Positions 53,520 to 62,808 of a stretch of DNA of 64,000 nucleotides are shown here, in pieces. Numbering within the stretch: the first letter of the stretch is position 1; every line of letters begins with the position of its first letter. The translations under genes and the position numbers were made by a program. The stretch is taken from NCBI RefSeq assembly GCF_003797945.1, contig NZ_RKKU01000010.1, positions 1 to 64,000 on the forward strand, read 5' to 3'. Source of the DNA: Pseudomonas neustonica (GTDB lineage Bacteria; Pseudomonadota; Gammaproteobacteria; Pseudomonadales; Pseudomonadaceae). The notes beneath the pieces are model-generated. The model saw only the letters and a list, made by a program, of their open reading frames with translations. It was not told where the DNA came from and did no database searches.

Positions 53520-54269
53520 ATGAGCGAAACGAACCTTATACTTGCCTATCCAGAAAGCAACCAAGAAATACGCACCTTATACCGAGATAGCGAAGTTTTA
53601 TTCTGCCTTGCAGATGTGGTGAGAATACTTGCAGAGCAAAACACTACTCTTGCCGAAGATGGAAGAAAGGTAGGCTTGGGAGGGCTAACGAAGGCATTAT
53701 TAGACGCACTAGATACCGACGAAAAGTATTCTGTACCAGAAATTGCATTAGACAACCCTCAGGATGCCCAATTTGTAACCCAACCTGGGCTTTTCAGAAT
53801 AATACTTCGCGATAACAGCCCAGCATGTAAAAAATTTCAACGGTGGGTATTTCACGAAGTTTTACCCTCCATTCAGCGATACGGTACCTATCCGCCGCCG
53901 AAGATTCAGCAGGGGTCCGAAGTAAAGAAAGCTGTAATGCTACTCCTTGAGGAAATTGAGGAGCGAGAAAGATTAGAGCGTGAAACGAAAGAACGATTCC
54001 TACAAACTGAGCGCCGATTAAATGAGCTTAGCCAAAAAATATCCACAACAGCGACACACCAAAATTACGGGGTGAATTATTTAACTGTCTCTGACTATTG
54101 CCGTCAGCTAGAAATAGAAAAGTCTCAAGAACAATTGCTTCGAGGCTGGTGTATAAAAATTAGTGCGGAAGAAGGGCATCCCAGCCACAAAGTGCTGAAA
54201 GATGGTCACGAAGAGGTATCGTTCTCTGAGCTCGTACTAAACAAAGCAATATCTAATATTCGCGGATAA
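53520..54269 (+). CDS. Bro-N domain protein (phage-antirepressor-like)
   Basis: This 249-residue protein has an N-terminal Bro-N domain (~10-120), with VLFCLADVVRILAEQNTT and the family segment FVTQPGLFRIILRDNSPACKKFQRWVFHEVLPSIQRYG. A charged coiled coil (~135-175) and an unfamiliar C-terminal domain (YLTVSDYCRQLEIEKSQEQL) follow. Codon use is clearly more AT-rich than the neighbours, a sign of transfer. Bro-N proteins act as antirepressors or DNA-binding switches in phages and mobile elements. No other phage genes are present. Confidence 0.85.
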   Translation: MSETNLILAYPESNQEIRTLYRDSEVLFCLADVVRILAEQNTTLAEDGRKVGLGGLTKALLDALDTDEKYSVPEIALDNPQDAQFVTQPGLFRIILRDNSPACKKFQRWVFHEVLPSIQRYGTYPPPKIQQGSEVKKAVMLLLEEIEERERLERETKERFLQTERRLNELSQKISTTATHQNYGVNYLTVSDYCRQLEIEKSQEQLLRGWCIKISAEEGHPSHKVLKDGHEEVSFSELVLNKAISNIRG

Positions 54270-54346: not shown

Positions 54347-55717
54347 TCAGTCGCCGGTCGACTCAATAGCCGCCTGCTCAGCTTCTTCACTATCTTCAAT
54401 ACTCAGAACCTCCACCGGGTCACGCTTCTGCAATTTTGGTGGCGGTGCTACCCATGCTCTGAGCTTTTGTCCAACTTCTTGGTAAAAATGCGGAACAGCT
54501 TTCTCAAGCTCTTCTATAAAAACTTTCGCGCCGGAGAAACGAGCGCCTAAATCCGCCATATAGAAAACCTCGAATGCGCTGGGCACCACATTGGTAGAAA
54601 GGGTTTCTAAAGCATTGCCATCTGCCAGGAGCGTTGCCAATGGTGTTTGGGTTTCTTCGGCACGACCGGGACGTATCGCTTTAACGTAAAAACCGTCCGC
54701 GTTCGCTTTGCTAACCTGTTTAATCAGCCAGTTCACCCTTGCGGAGCTACGTACTTTGTCTTGCGGCGCGCCGAGACGCATGGCGCAAGTAATAGTTCGC
54801 TTTGTCAGGTCAGCCGTTATATCCAGATCGGCGGCAGCATCAGGGATCGTTAGGCAGCAAGTTAGTTTGTGTTCCTTGGCCAGCAACTCACAGTCGTCTT
54901 TCAACCGCTGAACAGGATCGTTGCGGTGCGATTTACTGATTTTCTGTTTTATCTGCCTACCAAGCTTGCGACTCATAACCAGACACAGGTCGCGCTGTTC
55001 TTGATGCCAACTTGAAACCGTGTTTTCCACTTCTTCCGTAGACTTGCTCAGAACGGCGCCACTTTTTACCTTGGCAACGACTTCCTTCCATTCACGATTC
55101 ATACTGTCGAAGCGTGTTGCTCCACTCGAGTCATGACTGAAGTAACGTAAAACCTCTTCCAGAATAAAGCGCTGATCCGGCGAGGTGATGTCCCCTGAGT
55201 CCAGCAAAAGTGTCGCCTGAGTTACAGCATACATCCAAGACCAATGATAGAGTTCCACGCCCTTGAGCAGCGTCTTCGGGATTTTTACTGGATGGTGGTT
55301 TGGCAAAGCAACAAACTGGTTGGTGATGGTGATCACCGCATCGATCTTATTCTTTTTTGCTTGGAGCAGATAACGTTTCAGCTGCTCTTCGCCTACTTCG
55401 TTGCTACCTATCTTTGCTTCTATCAAAGCCGCCCATTGCTTACTGCCGGTCACAAGTTGAACAAGACCGTCAGGGCGATCTTTCTTGGGAATGTCGAGAT
55501 CGCATTCCAAGGCAACCTCAGTCCAGGCTCCCATTCTGGCTCGAGCGCTGACCCGGTGTCCGAGTGAAGCAAACATGACCTGCCGAAATTCATAAACCCC
55601 ACGCAACGCGGCGAGAAATATAGAAGCCGCCCTTTGTTCTCGGTTTGTATCAGCTACCACCGGTATTAAACGAGCTACCTCGGCTTGCACCACGTACTCT
55701 GGCCGTTCCATGCGCAT
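54347..55717 (-). CDS. PD-(D/E)XK-like protein of unknown function
   Basis: A 456-residue protein. A nuclease-like core is suggested at ~75-135 by DLDIPKKDRPDGLVQLV, then WAALIEAKIGSNEVGEEQLKRY, giving the PD...EAK pattern, followed by a strand DAVITITNQF. The rest is helical and charged, with an acidic tail. It could be a restriction-type nuclease or a defence effector; the family is not one I can name. It lies in the REP-studded islet, convergent with the Bro-N gene. The start at 55717 has AAGGA just upstream; ATG 55711 is an alternative. Confidence 0.75.
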   Translation of the reverse strand: MRMERPEYVVQAEVARLIPVVADTNREQRAASIFLAALRGVYEFRQVMFASLGHRVSARARMGAWTEVALECDLDIPKKDRPDGLVQLVTGSKQWAALIEAKIGSNEVGEEQLKRYLLQAKKNKIDAVITITNQFVALPNHHPVKIPKTLLKGVELYHWSWMYAVTQATLLLDSGDITSPDQRFILEEVLRYFSHDSSGATRFDSMNREWKEVVAKVKSGAVLSKSTEEVENTVSSWHQEQRDLCLVMSRKLGRQIKQKISKSHRNDPVQRLKDDCELLAKEHKLTCCLTIPDAAADLDITADLTKRTITCAMRLGAPQDKVRSSARVNWLIKQVSKANADGFYVKAIRPGRAEETQTPLATLLADGNALETLSTNVVPSAFEVFYMADLGARFSGAKVFIEELEKAVPHFYQEVGQKLRAWVAPPPKLQKRDPVEVLSIEDSEEAEQAAIESTGD

Positions 55718-55935: not shown

Positions 55936-56787
55936 CTAACCCCCAATCCCGTCAGCGTTTTTATCCGCCAACCATACGGACCAATGTCCGCCGGGCTCCA
56001 TCTGCAACTCTAACAAATCATACGTCTTCACCATATCTAACAAGCCTGAGTGCCCATATTTCTTAGGCGAAAAAGCGGGGTCTGTACGCTTTAGATAGGC
56101 CCCTAGCGGACCGAGTCCGACCTTACCCTCAGACGTATCACTGGCCAGTAGAGACACCGCCTCCACCACAAAGCGAGGGCGCTGCTTTACGGCTATGTGG
56201 CTGGATTCCTTAGCTGCTTCTTTGGTCTGGTCTGTTTTAGCGGTTTTAGGCTTGCTAGCAGGCTCTTCTTTGGCCGGTGACTTTTCTGCAGAGTCCGCAC
56301 TAACATCTGCGTCAGGCTCGCCTGGCGTCCACTCAAAAAAGAGGTCGCTGGCGTTGCGTAACGCCTCCGGTGTTTTGCTCTCACCTACTATGCAAACTCG
56401 TGCACCACGCTCGCGCAGTTTGCGGCAAAGGTAGGCAAAATCCGAATCACTAGTAACCAGGCAGAAGGTCTCTGCACGGTGGTCAAACATGGCTTCCAGC
56501 GCGTCTAGGGCGAGGGCAATGTCTGCCGTGTTCTTACCGGAGGCGTATTGATATTGCAGATGCGGCGTAAAGGCCAGTCGCACCAGCGCCTCCTGCCAAC
56601 GATTTGCGAGGGTGCCGTGGTTACCGTAGCCGCGGCGTAACGCGACCCGGCCAAATTGAGCGGCCATGCGCAAGGCATAGGGAAGGATGTCCGGTGGCAC
56701 GTTGTCGCAATCAACCAGCACCGCGACGGGTACATCGGTGCCGTTGGAGAAGTCCTGAACTGCGTTGGATCGAGGATTGTTATTCAT
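55936..56787 (-). CDS. NYN-domain ribonuclease-like protein with LOTUS/OST-HTH domain
   Basis: A 283-residue protein. The N-terminal NYN (PIN-like) domain covers ~18-150, with acidic residues in AVLVDCDNV, NTADIALALDALEAM and LVTSDSDFAYLCRKLRERG. A Lys/Glu/Pro-rich linker (~155-200) joins it to a C-terminal OST-HTH/LOTUS domain (~205-275, GPLGAYLKRTDPAFSPKKYGHSGLLDMVK). Such two-domain proteins (LabA-like) are thought to cut or bind RNA. It could form a defence or stress module with its islet neighbours, but this is only inference. Confidence 0.88.
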   Translation of the reverse strand: MNNNPRSNAVQDFSNGTDVPVAVLVDCDNVPPDILPYALRMAAQFGRVALRRGYGNHGTLANRWQEALVRLAFTPHLQYQYASGKNTADIALALDALEAMFDHRAETFCLVTSDSDFAYLCRKLRERGARVCIVGESKTPEALRNASDLFFEWTPGEPDADVSADSAEKSPAKEEPASKPKTAKTDQTKEAAKESSHIAVKQRPRFVVEAVSLLASDTSEGKVGLGPLGAYLKRTDPAFSPKKYGHSGLLDMVKTYDLLELQMEPGGHWSVWLADKNADGIGG

Positions 56788-57862: not shown

Positions 57863-58888
57863 CTATCTGACGGCACTCCCCGCCTTCCGCTCCAAATGAC
57901 TCCGATACTCCCCCGGCGTCATCCCGGTCCAGCTGCGAAAGGCACGGATAAAGGAGCTTTGTTCAGAGTAGCCGAGCAAGAGTGCGACATCGGTTTGCGC
58001 CAGTGCCGGGTCGGCCAGGTATTGTCTGGCGAGGGTGTGCCGCGTGTGCGCCAGCAAGCCGCGATAGCTGTAGCCCGCGCTGCGCAGCTGTCGATAAAAG
58101 GTGCGTACGGAGCAACCCAGGGCGGCGGCGACGGCTACGGCGCTGACGTCGCCATTTTTCATCGACTCCAGGATCTGTTCCTGCACCCGATGAAAAGACG
58201 CACCTGCTTCGGCATCGTCCATCTGCGGTAGCTGGTTGAGTAACGCCTGCGCTTGCTGTTCGAGCAGGCGCAACAGATAAGGGTCTTTGCCGGAAATCGG
58301 TAGCGCCAGCAGGTGCGCGGGAATGGTTAGCTCGATGGCGCTGCAGTCAAAATCGACCGGGCAGCCGAGCAACGCCTGATACATGCCCACATCCTGCGGT
58401 TTCGGGAATGGTAAACCGGCGCGAAGCGGTGTTATTGCTCGGCCAATCAGCGCTTGGCACAAACTGACAAAGACCGCGAGACTGAACTCACTGGCCAACG
58501 GGGTGTTGGCTACGGACTGGGTCCAGCGCATGCGCAAGGCACCCTCCTTCAACTCGGCACGTGATACCAGACCATGCTGCAGCAAACGCTGGTAGCGGTG
58601 ATAGCGCGCCAGCGCCTGCCCCAGAGTGCCACAGTAAGACACCATATAGCCGACTACGCCAAAGTAGCCGGGTTTTGCCGCCAGGCCCAACCTGACGCCC
58701 AGCGCGCTGACTGGTTCTTGCTCCCAGACGGCGGCCAATAACTCACAGAATTTTTGCGCAGGAACGCTGGGCGATTCCAGGCACTGACTCATCTCCTCCT
58801 GGAGCGCGGCAGCCGGCAGCGCGCGCTCGGCGACATAGTCCTGCAGCGTATGGATGAATCCTGAGGGAAGGTAGTCTGGCTTGCTCAT
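57863..58888 (-). CDS. AraC-family regulator (arabinose-binding-like N-domain)
   Basis: A 341-residue regulator starting at ATG 58888; the frame is open to 58969, but that extension has no typical content. The N-terminal ligand domain includes KPGYFGVVGYMVSYCGTLGQAL, as in OruR/ArgR-like AraC proteins. The C-terminal double helix-turn-helix is AAALGCSVRTFYRQLRSAGYSY and DVALLLGYSEQSSFIRAFRSWTG. It is divergent from the ferredoxin-FNR-molybdopterin fusion, with 113 bp between, so it is the probable regulator of that gene. Confidence 0.92.
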   Translation of the reverse strand: MSKPDYLPSGFIHTLQDYVAERALPAAALQEEMSQCLESPSVPAQKFCELLAAVWEQEPVSALGVRLGLAAKPGYFGVVGYMVSYCGTLGQALARYHRYQRLLQHGLVSRAELKEGALRMRWTQSVANTPLASEFSLAVFVSLCQALIGRAITPLRAGLPFPKPQDVGMYQALLGCPVDFDCSAIELTIPAHLLALPISGKDPYLLRLLEQQAQALLNQLPQMDDAEAGASFHRVQEQILESMKNGDVSAVAVAAALGCSVRTFYRQLRSAGYSYRGLLAHTRHTLARQYLADPALAQTDVALLLGYSEQSSFIRAFRSWTGMTPGEYRSHLERKAGSAVR

Positions 58889-59001
58889 AAAGGCACTATC
58901 GGGACGCTGGCACAAAATGTCAATCAGGCAATTACTGCCAATACGCACACACAAGCCCAGACATACCATAAGGGCTTTGCAATCTATGTGCGGAGTAGAT
59001 A

Positions 59002-62000
59002 ATGGCTTACGTAGTCACCCAAAGCTGTATTGGCAACAAACACACTAGTTGCGTCGATGTGTGCCCAGTAGAGGCTTTCCGTGAGGCGCCGGAAATGCTG
59101 TTTATTGATCCGGACGTTTGTATTGACTGCAACGCCTGCGTCTCCGCCTGCCCTGAGGGCGCGATCTTTCCGCGCAGCATGGTCCCCGACGACCAACAGA
59201 ATTTTATCACCCTCAATGCCGAGGGCGCGAAAACCCACCCGGTGATCCGCCAGAGCCTGCAAACCGGCCAACAATCGGCCAGCCCGCTCGCCAATGTGTC
59301 GAGCCGCTTTGCGATTATCGGCTCAGGCCCTAGCGGCTTTTATGCCGCCGAAGCACTGATGAAGCAGTTGCCTGGCGCCCAGGTGGACATGTTTGAGCGT
59401 TTGCCCACGCCATTCGGCCTGGTGCGTTATGGCGTGGCGCCGGATCACCCGCGTATCAAGTCTGTCACTAGTAGCTTTGAGCGCATCGCCGAGAGTGAGC
59501 GCTTCCGCTTTTTTGGCAACGTGCAGATCGGTCGCGACCTGAGCAGCGCCGAGTTGCGCCAGCATTACCACGGCGTGATCTACGCCACCGGCGGTTCACA
59601 GAGCCGCCCGCTTAACCTGCCCGGCGCCGACAGCGGCAACATCTTTGGTTCATCTAATTTTGTCGGCTGGTACAACGGGCACCCGGATGAAGCCGATTTG
59701 GCGCCCGACCTGTCGGGCACAACCGCCGTGATCATCGGTATCGGCAACGTCGCGCTCGATATCGCCCGTCTGTTAGTACTGCCCCATGCGCAATTGAGCA
59801 AGACCGATATCGCCGACCACGCCCTGCAGGCACTGGCCAATAGCGGCGTGGACGAAGTCTGCCTGCTGGCCCGCCGTGGTCCCGCGCAAGCCGCCTTTAC
59901 GCCAAAAGAGCTGGAACAGCTGATGGCCATCCCCGGCCTGCAACTGCGGGTAGATGCCGCTGATCTTGAACTGGACGACGCAACCGCGCGCCAGCTAGAG
60001 CAGCCCGAATTTGCCGAGGCGCGCCAGAACCTCAGCCTGCTGCGCGAGATTGCTGCGCGCCCCTTGAGCGCAGGCAAGCGCATTCGCTTTATGTTTTATA
60101 CCAGCCCCGCCGCCTTCACCGCCGCCGGCGGACAGGTCACCGAGGTAGAGGTGCAGCGCAACGAACTGGTACGCGATGAGCAAGGTGCGCTGGTGGCACG
60201 CCCTGCGGATCAAAGCTCACGTCTGACTGCCAGCCTGGTGGTCCATGCGATCGGCTACCAGGGCTCGGCCATTGACGAGCTGCCCTTCGATTTGGGCCGT
60301 GGCGTGATGCAGCATGAGCAAGGCCGCATTCAGGGCCATGCCGACAGCCGCGATTACGTGGCTGGCTGGATCAAGCGCGGTGCCAGTGGCGTGATTGGCA
60401 GCAACCGCCAGTGCGCCACTGAGAGTGTGCAGCGCTTGCTCGCCGACCTGGGCAATAGCCTGCCCGAGCGCGGCGGCGATATCAGCGAACTGTTGTCTGC
60501 ACGCGACGTACAGAGCGTCAGCATGGCGGACTGGCAGTTGCTTGATCAACATGAGCAAACCCGTGGCCGTATTGAAGGCCGGGTGAGAAGCAAGGTCGTC
60601 AAGATTGCCGATATGCTCAGCGTTATCCGCGATGCCCGCGCCCACGAAGAAGAACAAACTCGCCTACCGGTGAAAACTCACCACCGCGCCTGCACCCTAT
60701 GTGAAGCCATGTGCGGTGTGGTGATCGAAACCCAGGGCGAGCAGATTCTGTCGATCAAGGGCGACAAGGACGACCCGCACAGCGAAGGCCATATCTGCCC
60801 CAAAGGCTACGCCCTGCAAGATCTGCACAACGATCCGGATCGCTTGCGTACGCCGCTGGAAAAGGTCAACGGCGAATGGCTGCCGATTGACTGGGACAGC
60901 GCGCTCGACAAGGTCGCAGCCAAGCTGGTGGATATCCAGCGCCGCCACGGTGACGATTCGATTGCCGGTTACTGGGGCAATCCCTCATCGCATAACCTGG
61001 GGTTGATGATGGCCTCAGGCACGCTGCGCAAGGCGATTGGCACACGCAATATCTCGTCCGCCGCCTCCCTCGACCAGATGCCCCACCAGTTGGTCTCTTA
61101 CCTGATGTTTGGCCATAGCCAGCTATTTACCATTCCGGACATCGACCGCACGCAATACATGCTGATGCTGGGCGCCAACCCGGCGGCGTCTAACGGCAGC
61201 CTGATGACCGCTGGCGACATTCTCAAGCGACTGGAGCGTATTCGTGAGCGCGGCGGCAAGGTGGTACTGATTGATCCACGCCGCACAGAATCGGCGCGCT
61301 ATGTCGACCAGCACCTGTTTATCCGCCCCGGTACCGACGCCTTCTTTTTGCTCGGCCTGATTCGTCACGTGCTCGACCAGGGGCTGACCAAGCCAGGCCG
61401 CCTGCGTGACCTAGCCGACGACTGGACGGCGCTCGAGCCGCTGTTCGACGGCGTATCACTGGAGCAAGTCAGCGCACGCTGCGGTATTGCGGTAGCAGAC
61501 ATCAAGCGCATTGCCGAAGACTTTGCCGCCGCCGAATGCGCTGTGTGTTACGGCCGCATGGGCGTTTCCACGCAAAGCTACGGCGCACTCAACCATTGGC
61601 TGATGCTGGTACTCAATATCCTGACCGGCAATCTCGACCGCCCCGGCGGCATGATGTTTACTACCCCGGCCTTTAATAAGGCACAGAGCCGGCCCATGGG
61701 CAGCTTCAATACTTACCAAAGCCGAGCGCGTGGGCTGCCGGAGTTTGATAGTTACTTCCCTGCGGTGACCATCGCCGAAGAAATGCTCACGCCCGGTGAG
61801 GGCCAGGTGCGCGGTTTTGTCTGTGTGGCCGGCAACCCGGTGCTGTCGACGCCCAACGGGCGGCAGATGGACGAGGCGCTGGACCAACTGGAGTTCATGG
61901 TCTCCATCGACTTCTACCTGAACGAAACCTCACGCCACGCCGACATCATTCTGCCACCCACTGGGCCGCTGGAGCACGAGCAATATGACATCGTGTTCAA

Positions 62001-62808
62001 CATGCTGGCGGTGCGTAACCTGGCGCGCTTCAGCGACCCGGTATTTGCAGCACCGGAAGGCACGCGCTGCGACTGGGATATCGTGCAGGGGCTGACCGCG
62101 CGCATCATGGCACTGAAAAACCCGGATGCCGAGCCTGCGCGCAAAATGCCCTCGCCTGAACAGATTCTTGATCATGGCTTGAAAACCGGCCCCTATGCCG
62201 AAGGCTTCCATGAGTACAACAGCGGCGAGCCAGTGAAGTATGACGAGCCGCTAAGCCTGGACGTACTCAAACGCTACCCGCACGGTCTGGACCTAGGGCC
62301 TATGCGCGAATCCTTCCCCGGCTACCTGTTTACCGCCGATAAAAATCTGCATCTCACGCCGCCGGAACTGGTCGCCGATCTGAGCCGCGCCATGGCTGAG
62401 CTGCGTGGCGCCGAGCAAGGCGAGCTGATGCTGATTGGCCGTCGCGATCTGCGTACCAACAACTCCTGGATGCACAACAGCGAGCGACTGGTCAAAGGCA
62501 AGGACCGCTGCGCCCTGCTCGTCCACCCCAGCGATGCCGAGCGTCTGGGGCTGGCAAGCGGTAAACAGGCGCGCATCATGTCACGCACCGGAGAACTGCT
62601 GGTCAGCGTGCAGGTGAGTGAAGACATCATGCCCGGCGTGGTGTGCCTGCCACACGGCTGGGGCCATGATCGTGAGGGTGTGAGTCTGCGCGTTGCCCAG
62701 AGCAAGCCCGGCATCAACGTTAACGACATTACCGATGATCAGGTCGTCGATGTGCTATCCGGCAATGCTGTGCTCAATGGCATTCCGGTGTCGGTAGTCG
62801 CGGCGTGA
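59002..62808 (+). CDS. ferredoxin / NADP-reductase / molybdopterin oxidoreductase fusion protein
   Basis: A single 1268-residue cytoplasmic protein. Residues ~1-75 are a 7Fe ferredoxin of FdxA type: C9, C17, C21, then C40, C43, C46, C50. Residues ~100-520 are an FprA/adrenodoxin-reductase-type flavoprotein, with FAD site GSGPSG at 107-112, ERLPTPFGLVRYGVAPDHP, NADP site GIGNVA at 246-251, and CATESV near the C-terminal part. Residues ~560-1268 are a DMSO-reductase-family enzyme: Fe4S4 ligands C564, C567, C571, C599, MGD-binding segments (GANPAASNG, DPRRTESA) and a C-terminal molydopterin-binding domain. No Tat signal is present. At the usual Mo-ligand position (RNISSAASLDQ, 683-693) there is no Cys or Sec. 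It resembles mycobacterial FprB joined to a molybdoenzyme. The design would pass electrons between NADP(H) and an unknown substrate. GGAG precedes the ATG by 6 nt. Confidence 0.9.
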   Translation: MAYVVTQSCIGNKHTSCVDVCPVEAFREAPEMLFIDPDVCIDCNACVSACPEGAIFPRSMVPDDQQNFITLNAEGAKTHPVIRQSLQTGQQSASPLANVSSRFAIIGSGPSGFYAAEALMKQLPGAQVDMFERLPTPFGLVRYGVAPDHPRIKSVTSSFERIAESERFRFFGNVQIGRDLSSAELRQHYHGVIYATGGSQSRPLNLPGADSGNIFGSSNFVGWYNGHPDEADLAPDLSGTTAVIIGIGNVALDIARLLVLPHAQLSKTDIADHALQALANSGVDEVCLLARRGPAQAAFTPKELEQLMAIPGLQLRVDAADLELDDATARQLEQPEFAEARQNLSLLREIAARPLSAGKRIRFMFYTSPAAFTAAGGQVTEVEVQRNELVRDEQGALVARPADQSSRLTASLVVHAIGYQGSAIDELPFDLGRGVMQHEQGRIQGHADSRDYVAGWIKRGASGVIGSNRQCATESVQRLLADLGNSLPERGGDISELLSARDVQSVSMADWQLLDQHEQTRGRIEGRVRSKVVKIADMLSVIRDARAHEEEQTRLPVKTHHRACTLCEAMCGVVIETQGEQILSIKGDKDDPHSEGHICPKGYALQDLHNDPDRLRTPLEKVNGEWLPIDWDSALDKVAAKLVDIQRRHGDDSIAGYWGNPSSHNLGLMMASGTLRKAIGTRNISSAASLDQMPHQLVSYLMFGHSQLFTIPDIDRTQYMLMLGANPAASNGSLMTAGDILKRLERIRERGGKVVLIDPRRTESARYVDQHLFIRPGTDAFFLLGLIRHVLDQGLTKPGRLRDLADDWTALEPLFDGVSLEQVSARCGIAVADIKRIAEDFAAAECAVCYGRMGVSTQSYGALNHWLMLVLNILTGNLDRPGGMMFTTPAFNKAQSRPMGSFNTYQSRARGLPEFDSYFPAVTIAEEMLTPGEGQVRGFVCVAGNPVLSTPNGRQMDEALDQLEFMVSIDFYLNETSRHADIILPPTGPLEHEQYDIVFNMLAVRNLARFSDPVFAAPEGTRCDWDIVQGLTARIMALKNPDAEPARKMPSPEQILDHGLKTGPYAEGFHEYNSGEPVKYDEPLSLDVLKRYPHGLDLGPMRESFPGYLFTADKNLHLTPPELVADLSRAMAELRGAEQGELMLIGRRDLRTNNSWMHNSERLVKGKDRCALLVHPSDAERLGLASGKQARIMSRTGELLVSVQVSEDIMPGVVCLPHGWGHDREGVSLRVAQSKPGINVNDITDDQVVDVLSGNAVLNGIPVSVVAA

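Follow-up and report, generated by a model that had tools for sequence, protein, structure and literature searches.

FprA and adrenodoxin reductase are enzymes that pass electrons from reduced nicotinamide adenine dinucleotide phosphate (NADPH) to ferredoxin, and FprB is the name given to fusions of a ferredoxin with an FprA-like reductase. Among the molybdenum (Mo) enzymes with a bis(pyranopterin guanine dinucleotide) cofactor (bisPGD), NarG and ethylbenzene dehydrogenase carry aspartate (Asp) as the Mo ligand. Many Mo-bisPGD enzymes take their electrons from partner subunits or from donors yet to be identified, so that orphan families among them are difficult to assay. The nearest published architecture, going by the accessible part of the source, is StnC of the Stn transhydrogenase (PDB 8oh5), in which iron–sulfur (FeS), flavin adenine dinucleotide (FAD)/NADPH and formate dehydrogenase (FDH)-like domains lie in one polypeptide; there the FDH-like domain is described as catalytically inactive and the NADPH/FAD domain is compared with a Pyrococcus transhydrogenase (PMC10482914). 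In the present work, a stretch of 64,000 nucleotides (positions 1 to 64,000 of contig NZ_RKKU01000010.1, hereafter the window) from the 4.33 Mb genome of the marine bacterium Pseudomonas neustonica was analyzed. It contains a gene (59002-62808) encoding a fusion of a ferredoxin, an FprA-type NADPH/FAD reductase and a Mo-bisPGD oxidoreductase, together with a divergent AraC-family regulator gene (Table 1).

The open reading frame (ORF) of the fusion starts with ATG and comprises 1268 codons without internal stops, as had been read in the first-pass annotation. Fer4 and Pyr_redox_2/NAD_binding_8 domains were found by Pfam in its N-terminal and middle parts. A phmmer search matched residues 1-84 to 7Fe ferredoxins of solved structure and residues 103-541 to FprA (1lqt, 8.4e-106). 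The middle module alone matched 1lqt (5.2e-107) and adrenodoxin reductase 1cjc (2.1e-88) end to end, and residues 5-443 of the 447-aa middle piece could be aligned to 1lqt, including the RRGPxQAAFT and GWIKRG segments; where the first-pass annotation had named an FprA/FprB-like reductase, the match is to FprA. The protein differs from FprA and adrenodoxin reductase in the complete Mo-bisPGD module at its C terminus.

Among 27 distinct fused proteins, the ferredoxin cysteine (Cys) residues 9, 17, 21, 40, 43, 46 and 50 were kept in all, with 7Fe spacing; the ferredoxin module scored below the cut-off of the FdxA equivalog NF045490 (97.8 vs 135 bits). The FAD/NADP glycines, Arg291 and the GWIKRGASGVIG segment were likewise present in 27/27 at the positions checked, and Arg292 of the FAD/NADPH module was replaced by Lys in two. 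The expected Cys, FAD and NADP motifs are thus conserved, and the presence of three modules with their cofactor motifs in one polypeptide, as proposed before, is well supported at the sequence level. The 'complete wire' from NADP(H) through FAD and FeS clusters to Mo that had been read from these motifs is backed in the same way, and the protein would load these cofactors and reduce its ferredoxin with NADPH. No export signal was seen by eye (judged without a signal predictor), in agreement with the earlier statement on the Tat signal: the fusion protein begins directly with the ferredoxin. ORFs of unfused relatives (e.g., L113, L085 and L046) begin a few residues ahead of the first cluster Cys.

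The C-terminal module scored well above the Pfam gathering thresholds for Molybdopterin (119.3 vs 24 bits), Molydop_binding (77.6 vs 26.8) and Molybdop_Fe4S4 (42.4 vs 22.7). Its own [4Fe-4S] motif, CxxCxxxC...C (Cys 564/567/571/599), had gone unmentioned in the first-pass annotation. Modeling of residues 549-1268, which had been suggested there, gave a mean predicted local distance difference test score (pLDDT) of 93.9, and a fold search with this 720-residue model aligned 575-670 residues in the 50 rows listed. The Z scores were 32.5 for PsrA, 32.2 for FDH, 31.9 for Nap, 31.7 for ArrA, 31.7 for acetylene hydratase and 26.4 for ethylbenzene dehydrogenase; the top matches are tied and all are complete Mo-bisPGD enzymes. 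By its domains and its complete predicted fold, the module belongs with the DMSO reductase family (Mo- or tungsten-bisPGD) and is predicted to bind one of these metals with two pyranopterins.

It had been noted earlier that neither Cys nor selenocysteine (Sec) occupies the Mo-ligand position. This was found to be right, and the residue predicted to face Mo is Asp691 by alignment, not residues 684-686 as had been supposed. Asp691 is present in 95/95 family rows, unfused relatives included (this count omits the paralogue row L003, whose true residue is Cys). In profile alignments to solved enzymes, the SxDQ segment of the family lies opposite the Sec/Cys segment: Asp691 faces residue X (Sec) of the F420-dependent formate dehydrogenase 9t1s, the Cys of PsrA and a Cys in the NasA/Fdh-like paralogue encoded by this genome. 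Nearly all of the 95 rows, unfused relatives among them, also keep the signatures RRxxRxNNSWxHN and PHGxGH.

The top fold match, the polysulfide/thiosulfate reductase PsrA (2vpw; 663 residues aligned, rmsd (root-mean-square deviation) 3.3), has a similar HGxGH stretch near its C terminus; it differs in having Cys opposite the Asp and in lacking an NADPH module. The type II enzymes of the DMSO reductase family (NarG, ethylbenzene dehydrogenase) share Asp as the predicted ligand, but their separate electron-transfer subunit genes were not seen at this locus, and ethylbenzene dehydrogenase ranks below FDH and Psr in the fold search. The NCBIfam scores of the Mo module were 223.7 bits for Fdh-alpha, 208.2 for NasC, 178.4 for PhsA and 112.7 for the type II Asp-ligated model, all far under the cut-offs (TIGR01591, 666.25; NF047855, 1100; TIGR03479, 984.75). 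Since the Fdh-alpha and PhsA scores and the fold matches rank above type II, the Asp ligand looks to have arisen apart from the type II Asp-ligated group.

Maturation genes are absent nearby, as stated before, and a MobA gene is present elsewhere in the genome (169.2 bits vs a cut-off of 151.85; one of 14 control genomes passes this cut-off). The Cys-ligated NasA/Fdh-type paralogue of the genome scored 528.5 bits for Fdh-alpha and 480.6 for NasC over a 667-residue stretch of its 910-aa frame, both under the cut-off.

To count the architecture, as had been proposed, full-length matches were collected: the 37 matches represent 27 distinct proteins, 1252-1328 aa long and counting that of the window, in several genera, so the fusion is not unique to this genome. 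An assembly artefact is excluded by this number, and a frameshift or stop near 60600 that would make two genes, raised earlier as a possible refutation, is unlikely since the frame is continuous there in all 27. In a relatives sample of 58 genomes, with the own one counted, there were 14 carriers, every one of them within the subset of 37 from the same genus; two of these carriers have the gene split over contigs, one piece (G014) having an in-frame TAG. In the order sample, 8/390 genomes, own included, had a full-length fusion and a ninth match (G097) was unfused; in the class sample the own genome was the only carrier (1/369). For both of the latter samples the threshold was E 1e-250 and two candidates were scored in each genome, so that weaker fusions could escape. 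A search of a plasmid collection (E 1e-50) gave 63 matching records, none covering 80% of the query and hence no fusion; one of the records, from Nocardia farcinica, is unannotated.

Among the best 80 of 218 matches, the nearest named carriers are Halopseudomonas species; carriers named there include Halopseudomonas pelagia, H. aestusnigri, H. laoshanensis, H. yangmingensis, Pseudomonas mangrovi, P. tumuqii, Aestuariicella, Rhodanobacter, Acinetobacter sp. ANC 4204, Glaciecola sp. 33A and Alkalilimnicola ehrlichii. The copy of A. ehrlichii AK92 (L045 10001-13803) is 80-91% identical to that of the window by module, but its reading frame is broken in the Mo module and so is that of its AraC gene, which points to a recent transfer with decay, to contamination or to a sequencing error. 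Contamination or mis-binning may account for this carrier and for a metagenome-assembled genome (MAG) of Oligoflexia.

When 97 Mo modules were placed in a tree, the 31 labelled as fused grouped together in a single clade with a Shimodaira–Hasegawa-like approximate likelihood ratio test (SH-aLRT) value of 99. Its sister group consists of three proteins without the fusion, found in Kordiimonadaceae, Emcibacter and a proteobacterial MAG. The tree was built quickly under LG+G4, with SH-aLRT as the sole support measure and a root on two very long branches, and four of the rows labelled fused (L029, L032, L041 and L042) lie on contigs ending short of the ferredoxin, that of L042 also short of the whole reductase. 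The single clade is most simply explained by one origin of the fusion and later patchy spread. The Mo-module family itself reaches at least Pseudomonadota, Bacteroidota, Chloroflexota, Actinomycetota, Myxococcota and Deinococcota.

The divergent AraC gene, taken earlier as a sign of induction by a specific small molecule, adjoins 25 of the 27 distinct fusions (one of these 25, L009, is truncated at a contig end), with a shared 16-mer between the genes, in support of a dedicated regulator. Its product scored above the Pfam thresholds for HTH_18 (70.8 vs 33.6 bits) and PF12625 (111.9 vs 27.6 bits) and belongs to the AraC/XylS type. The longest ORF begins at 58969; judging by the starts of homologous ORFs and by the conserved non-coding motif that falls within the longer ORF, the gene probably starts at 58888. 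The protein remained under the NCBIfam cut-offs for GliR (170.3 vs 570) and QhpR (186.5 vs 250). GliR (PA3027) of Pseudomonas aeruginosa is likewise of the AraC type and divergent to its target operon; as described in the accessible part of PMC8151288, it has a motif A with TGGC-like sites and several targets, as opposed to one exact site here, and no effector is named in that part.

The 16-mer TGGCACAAAATGTCAA is exact in 21/27 distinct fused loci and has at most three mismatches in 25/27, precisely the 25 loci with AraC. Among the 58 relatives, it was exact in 13 genomes (own included), all fusion carriers, and occurs with one mismatch in the fourteenth carrier (G020); none of the 44 fusion-free genomes contained it, and a reversed-pattern control gave no match in the 58 genomes. 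The exact copy is found once per genome except in G013, whose second copy starts a contig. It was also found in Acinetobacter, Aestuariicella, Pseudomonas tumuqii and the Oligoflexia MAG. At near-constant spacing after it, fused loci have a second element, TGYCAATAC or a variant (TGCCAATAC in the window), which may be a second half-site.

A promoter consensus scan found two sites, against a mean of 0.3 in shuffles. The putative -35 of the AraC gene overlaps the 16-mer (TTGACA is read on its other strand), and this arrangement fits a regulator that would limit its own expression and activate the enzyme gene. In the own genome, four sites were found at up to two mismatches, namely the exact one and three with two mismatches (one inside the AraC gene). 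A wider AraC regulon was considered and rejected, since against these four sites the reversed-pattern control gave two, and further targets are thus unsupported. AraC therefore appears to be a single-target regulator.

Table 1. Features of the fusion locus in the window (aa, amino acids; positions are those of the window).
Feature	Position	Strand	Basis
Fusion gene, ferredoxin – NADPH/FAD reductase – Mo-bisPGD oxidoreductase, 1268 aa	59002..62808	+	ORF, Pfam, phmmer
7Fe ferredoxin module, residues 1-84, seven conserved Cys ligands	59002..59253	+	phmmer, alignment of fused proteins
FprA/adrenodoxin-reductase-type FAD/NADPH module, residues 103-541	59308..60624	+	phmmer; FAD/NADP motif residues conserved
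[4Fe-4S] subdomain of Mo module, residues 558-608, Cys 564/567/571/599	60673..60825	+	Pfam Molybdop_Fe4S4, alignment
Molybdopterin catalytic domain, residues 614-1031	60841..62094	+	Pfam, structure model, fold matches
Asp691 codon, predicted Mo ligand	61072..61074	+	95/95 family rows; alignments to Sec/Cys
Molydop_binding domain, residues 1142-1256, signature RRxxRxNNSWxHN and PHGxGH	62425..62769	+	Pfam, alignment
Divergent AraC-family regulator (Arabinose_bd PF12625 and HTH_18), probable start	57863..58888	-	Pfam on long ORF; homologous starts
Operator-like motif TGGCACAAAATGTCAA	58908..58923	+	only exact copy in genome
Second half-site-like element TGCCAATAC, like the TGTCAAT end of TGGCACAAAATGTCAA	58936..58944	+	near-constant spacing; putative role
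Promoter-like site of AraC gene: TTGACA, 17 nt, GATAGT	58895..58923	-	consensus scan only

Neighboring genes within 6 kb were clustered; the ORFs were called mechanically and some are spurious. The AraC cluster covers 32 loci, and a 19-locus cluster reads as antisense frames of AraC; among the clustered neighbors, no gene other than AraC recurs widely beside the fusion. A glutathione S-transferase (GST)-like cluster comprises five loci of four genomes (L117:4982-6088, L119:4867-5979, L038/L107, which are one genome, and L027), with a GST-domain gene of ~370 aa (Pfam scan on L117 only). Clusters at unfused loci mostly track synteny among close relatives. The unfused paralogue retains its neighbors, which we take by eye to be argF- and glutaredoxin-like, in six loci, five from the genus and one from the family. 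As only AraC recurs with the fusion, the two suggest a portable accessory unit of two genes, a sensor and a self-sufficient enzyme, with the paralogue as a resident gene. By eye, MoeA-like genes were seen within 6 kb in L020, L021, L023 and L050 and MoaA-like genes in L038, L044 and L066.

Partners encoded by separate genes were also observed. In Nocardia rhizosphaerihabitans (L090), the Mo gene is directly followed by a separate ferredoxin-FprA gene. On a plasmid of Rhizobium sp. CB3090 (L102 10001-15070), an aldehyde dehydrogenase gene is followed by separate ferredoxin, FprA-like and Mo genes and then moaA; since this Mo protein is a member of another subfamily, with Cys as the ligand, such wiring appears to have come together independently more than once. 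In five of the six Streptomyces plasmid regions viewed (L143-L148), unfused Mo-module relatives lie inside natural-product-like clusters with nonribosomal peptide synthetases, acyl carrier proteins, tyrosine 2,3-aminomutase, 4-hydroxyphenylacetate 3-hydroxylase and a diiron oxygenase; the matches H9, H10, H11, H14 and H15 are cluster-borne (H9 and H10 near-identical), and H12 is not of this kind. This context may offer a way into the family's chemistry.

All these characteristics allow us to assume that the fusion is, on balance, a soluble and self-sufficient cytosolic NADPH-dependent Mo-Asp reductase for one inducing small molecule. NADPH would reduce FAD in the FprA-like middle module, which would hand electrons to the 7Fe ferredoxin at the N terminus; from there they would reach Mo-bisPGD by way of the [4Fe-4S] cluster in the Mo module, an order that we infer from knowledge of these families. 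The Mo-bisPGD centre, held by Asp691, would reduce a specific small oxidised molecule in the cytosol, most plausibly an N-oxide, an S-oxide or an oxyanion-like compound. AraC may sense the substrate or a relative of it and bind 58908-58944 between the genes; once bound, it would switch on the enzyme gene and limit its own expression.

Several points weigh against this assignment. FprA-type reductases can run in reverse, so that a dehydrogenase or hydroxylase feeding NADP+ could also be accommodated, and known Asp-ligated enzymes include both reductases and dehydrogenases. In the tree, 64/97 rows are unfused (one of them the NasA/Fdh-like outgroup), and neither a ferredoxin nor an FprA hit was seen at their loci, of which 53 include 1.4 kb or more to either side and 29 include 5 kb or more; those proteins thus need another donor. 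Two of the 27 fusions (L105 and L034) have neither AraC nor the operator-like site, their best matches having 7 and 8 mismatches. The 16-mer overlaps the promoter-like -35 of the AraC gene, and part of its conservation may be promoter-driven; with about half of the 27 fusions in one genus, it does not amount to 27 independent observations. A truncated model of residues 1-1200, intended to show how the modules pack, was poor (pLDDT 68.5, predicted TM-score 0.48) and was not used.

The alternative that survives best, although it is unlikely, is that the wire runs in the opposite direction: the Mo-Asp centre would oxidise or hydroxylate an organic substrate, and the ferredoxin and FprA modules would pass the electrons to NADP+, making a catabolic self-sufficient dehydrogenase. 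Possibly catabolic neighbors agree with it, namely those in L037 (flavin monooxygenase-like, short-chain dehydrogenase/reductase (SDR) and alpha/beta-hydrolase), L036 (alpha/beta-hydrolase), L038 (metallo-beta-lactamase-fold and SBF-transporter), L043 (AMP-binding) and L117 (GST), as do the SDR-like genes within 6 kb at eight loci of seven genomes, fused and unfused, and the position of the Rhizobium CB3090 genes after an aldehyde dehydrogenase gene. However, AraC apart, neighbors vary among the fused loci, SDR is a very common family, and the Rhizobium Mo partner comes from the other, Cys-ligated subfamily.

It is quite improbable that the protein is mainly a reductase whose ferredoxin-FprA part also serves other acceptors, such as cytochromes P450, with the Mo module as a passenger. 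Two-module ferredoxin and FprA-like proteins do occur on plasmids of Rhodococcus and others, where the matches extend over residues 1 to ~545 only (~36-41% identity), without an attached Mo module in the match; but the exact 16-mer occurs as one site per genome, at the fusion, and no co-regulated acceptor is thereby seen.

A catalytically dead Mo module in a protein working as an electron hub has a precedent in the FDH-like domain of StnC, as far as the available part of PMC10482914 describes it, and is slightly less probable again. Asp691, the cluster Cys residues and the RRxxRxNNSWxHN and PHGxGH signatures are kept in all or nearly all of the 95 rows, including unfused ones, and only AraC recurs widely as a nearby partner gene. 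StnC, as known from the same part, shares the combination of FeS, FAD/NADPH and FDH-like domains in one chain; its NADPH module is of another type, its FDH-like domain is inactive, and it is a subunit of an electron-bifurcating complex. The best-scoring stretch of the fusion against StnC in phmmer was residues 89-257 only.

Least probable of all is that an NADPH reductase has been joined to a formate dehydrogenase/CO2 reductase or to an assimilatory nitrate reductase: Fdh-alpha and NasC gave the best NCBIfam scores, but these lie far below their cut-offs, Asp replaces the Sec/Cys ligand throughout the 95 rows, the stretch that presumably holds the catalytic Arg of FdhF-type enzymes falls in an insertion absent here (the alignment with the paralogue shows the gap as well), and the genome has another, Cys-ligated NasA/Fdh-type protein.

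Returning to the NADPH-dependent reductase, the first-pass annotation had named no characterised enzyme with all three modules. None was found by a narrow, conjunctive search of the open literature, with subscription journals largely outside it, which is weak evidence of absence; one chain with FeS, FAD/NADPH and FDH-like domains is already known from StnC, according to the part of that report available. A catechol dehydroxylase (PMC7028382) was considered as well and set aside, since the accessible part of that paper has no bearing on the Mo-module family. What is new, as far as was searched, is a conserved combination of known modules with a dedicated switch. A broader proposal is tentative and as a whole rather doubtful: a one-protein NADPH-to-Mo enzyme, the Mo-bisPGD counterpart of self-sufficient P450s, from a family that is Asp-ligated throughout on a scaffold nearer to FDH and polysulfide reductase than to the known Asp enzymes, with a reaction new among characterised Mo-bisPGD enzymes and its own single-target AraC. 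As the donor is built into the fusion, NADPH consumption alone could reveal the substrate, and the AraC sensor, which appears to have a single target, could lead to it independently. This substrate would be a lead for the wider Mo-module family across several phyla.

Elsewhere in the window, six proteins were scanned with defence-system models and no match was found among them. A 456-aa protein (54347-55717, minus strand) also had no Pfam match, and its stretch LIEAKIGSNEVGEEQLKRY resembles by eye the core of a PD-(D/E)XK nuclease. The protein encoded at 55936-56787 (minus strand) contains NYN and OST-HTH/LOTUS domains. Downstream of the ribonucleotide reductase genes, a BRO-N domain protein is encoded at 53520-54269 (plus strand); BRO-N genes often occur in phages.

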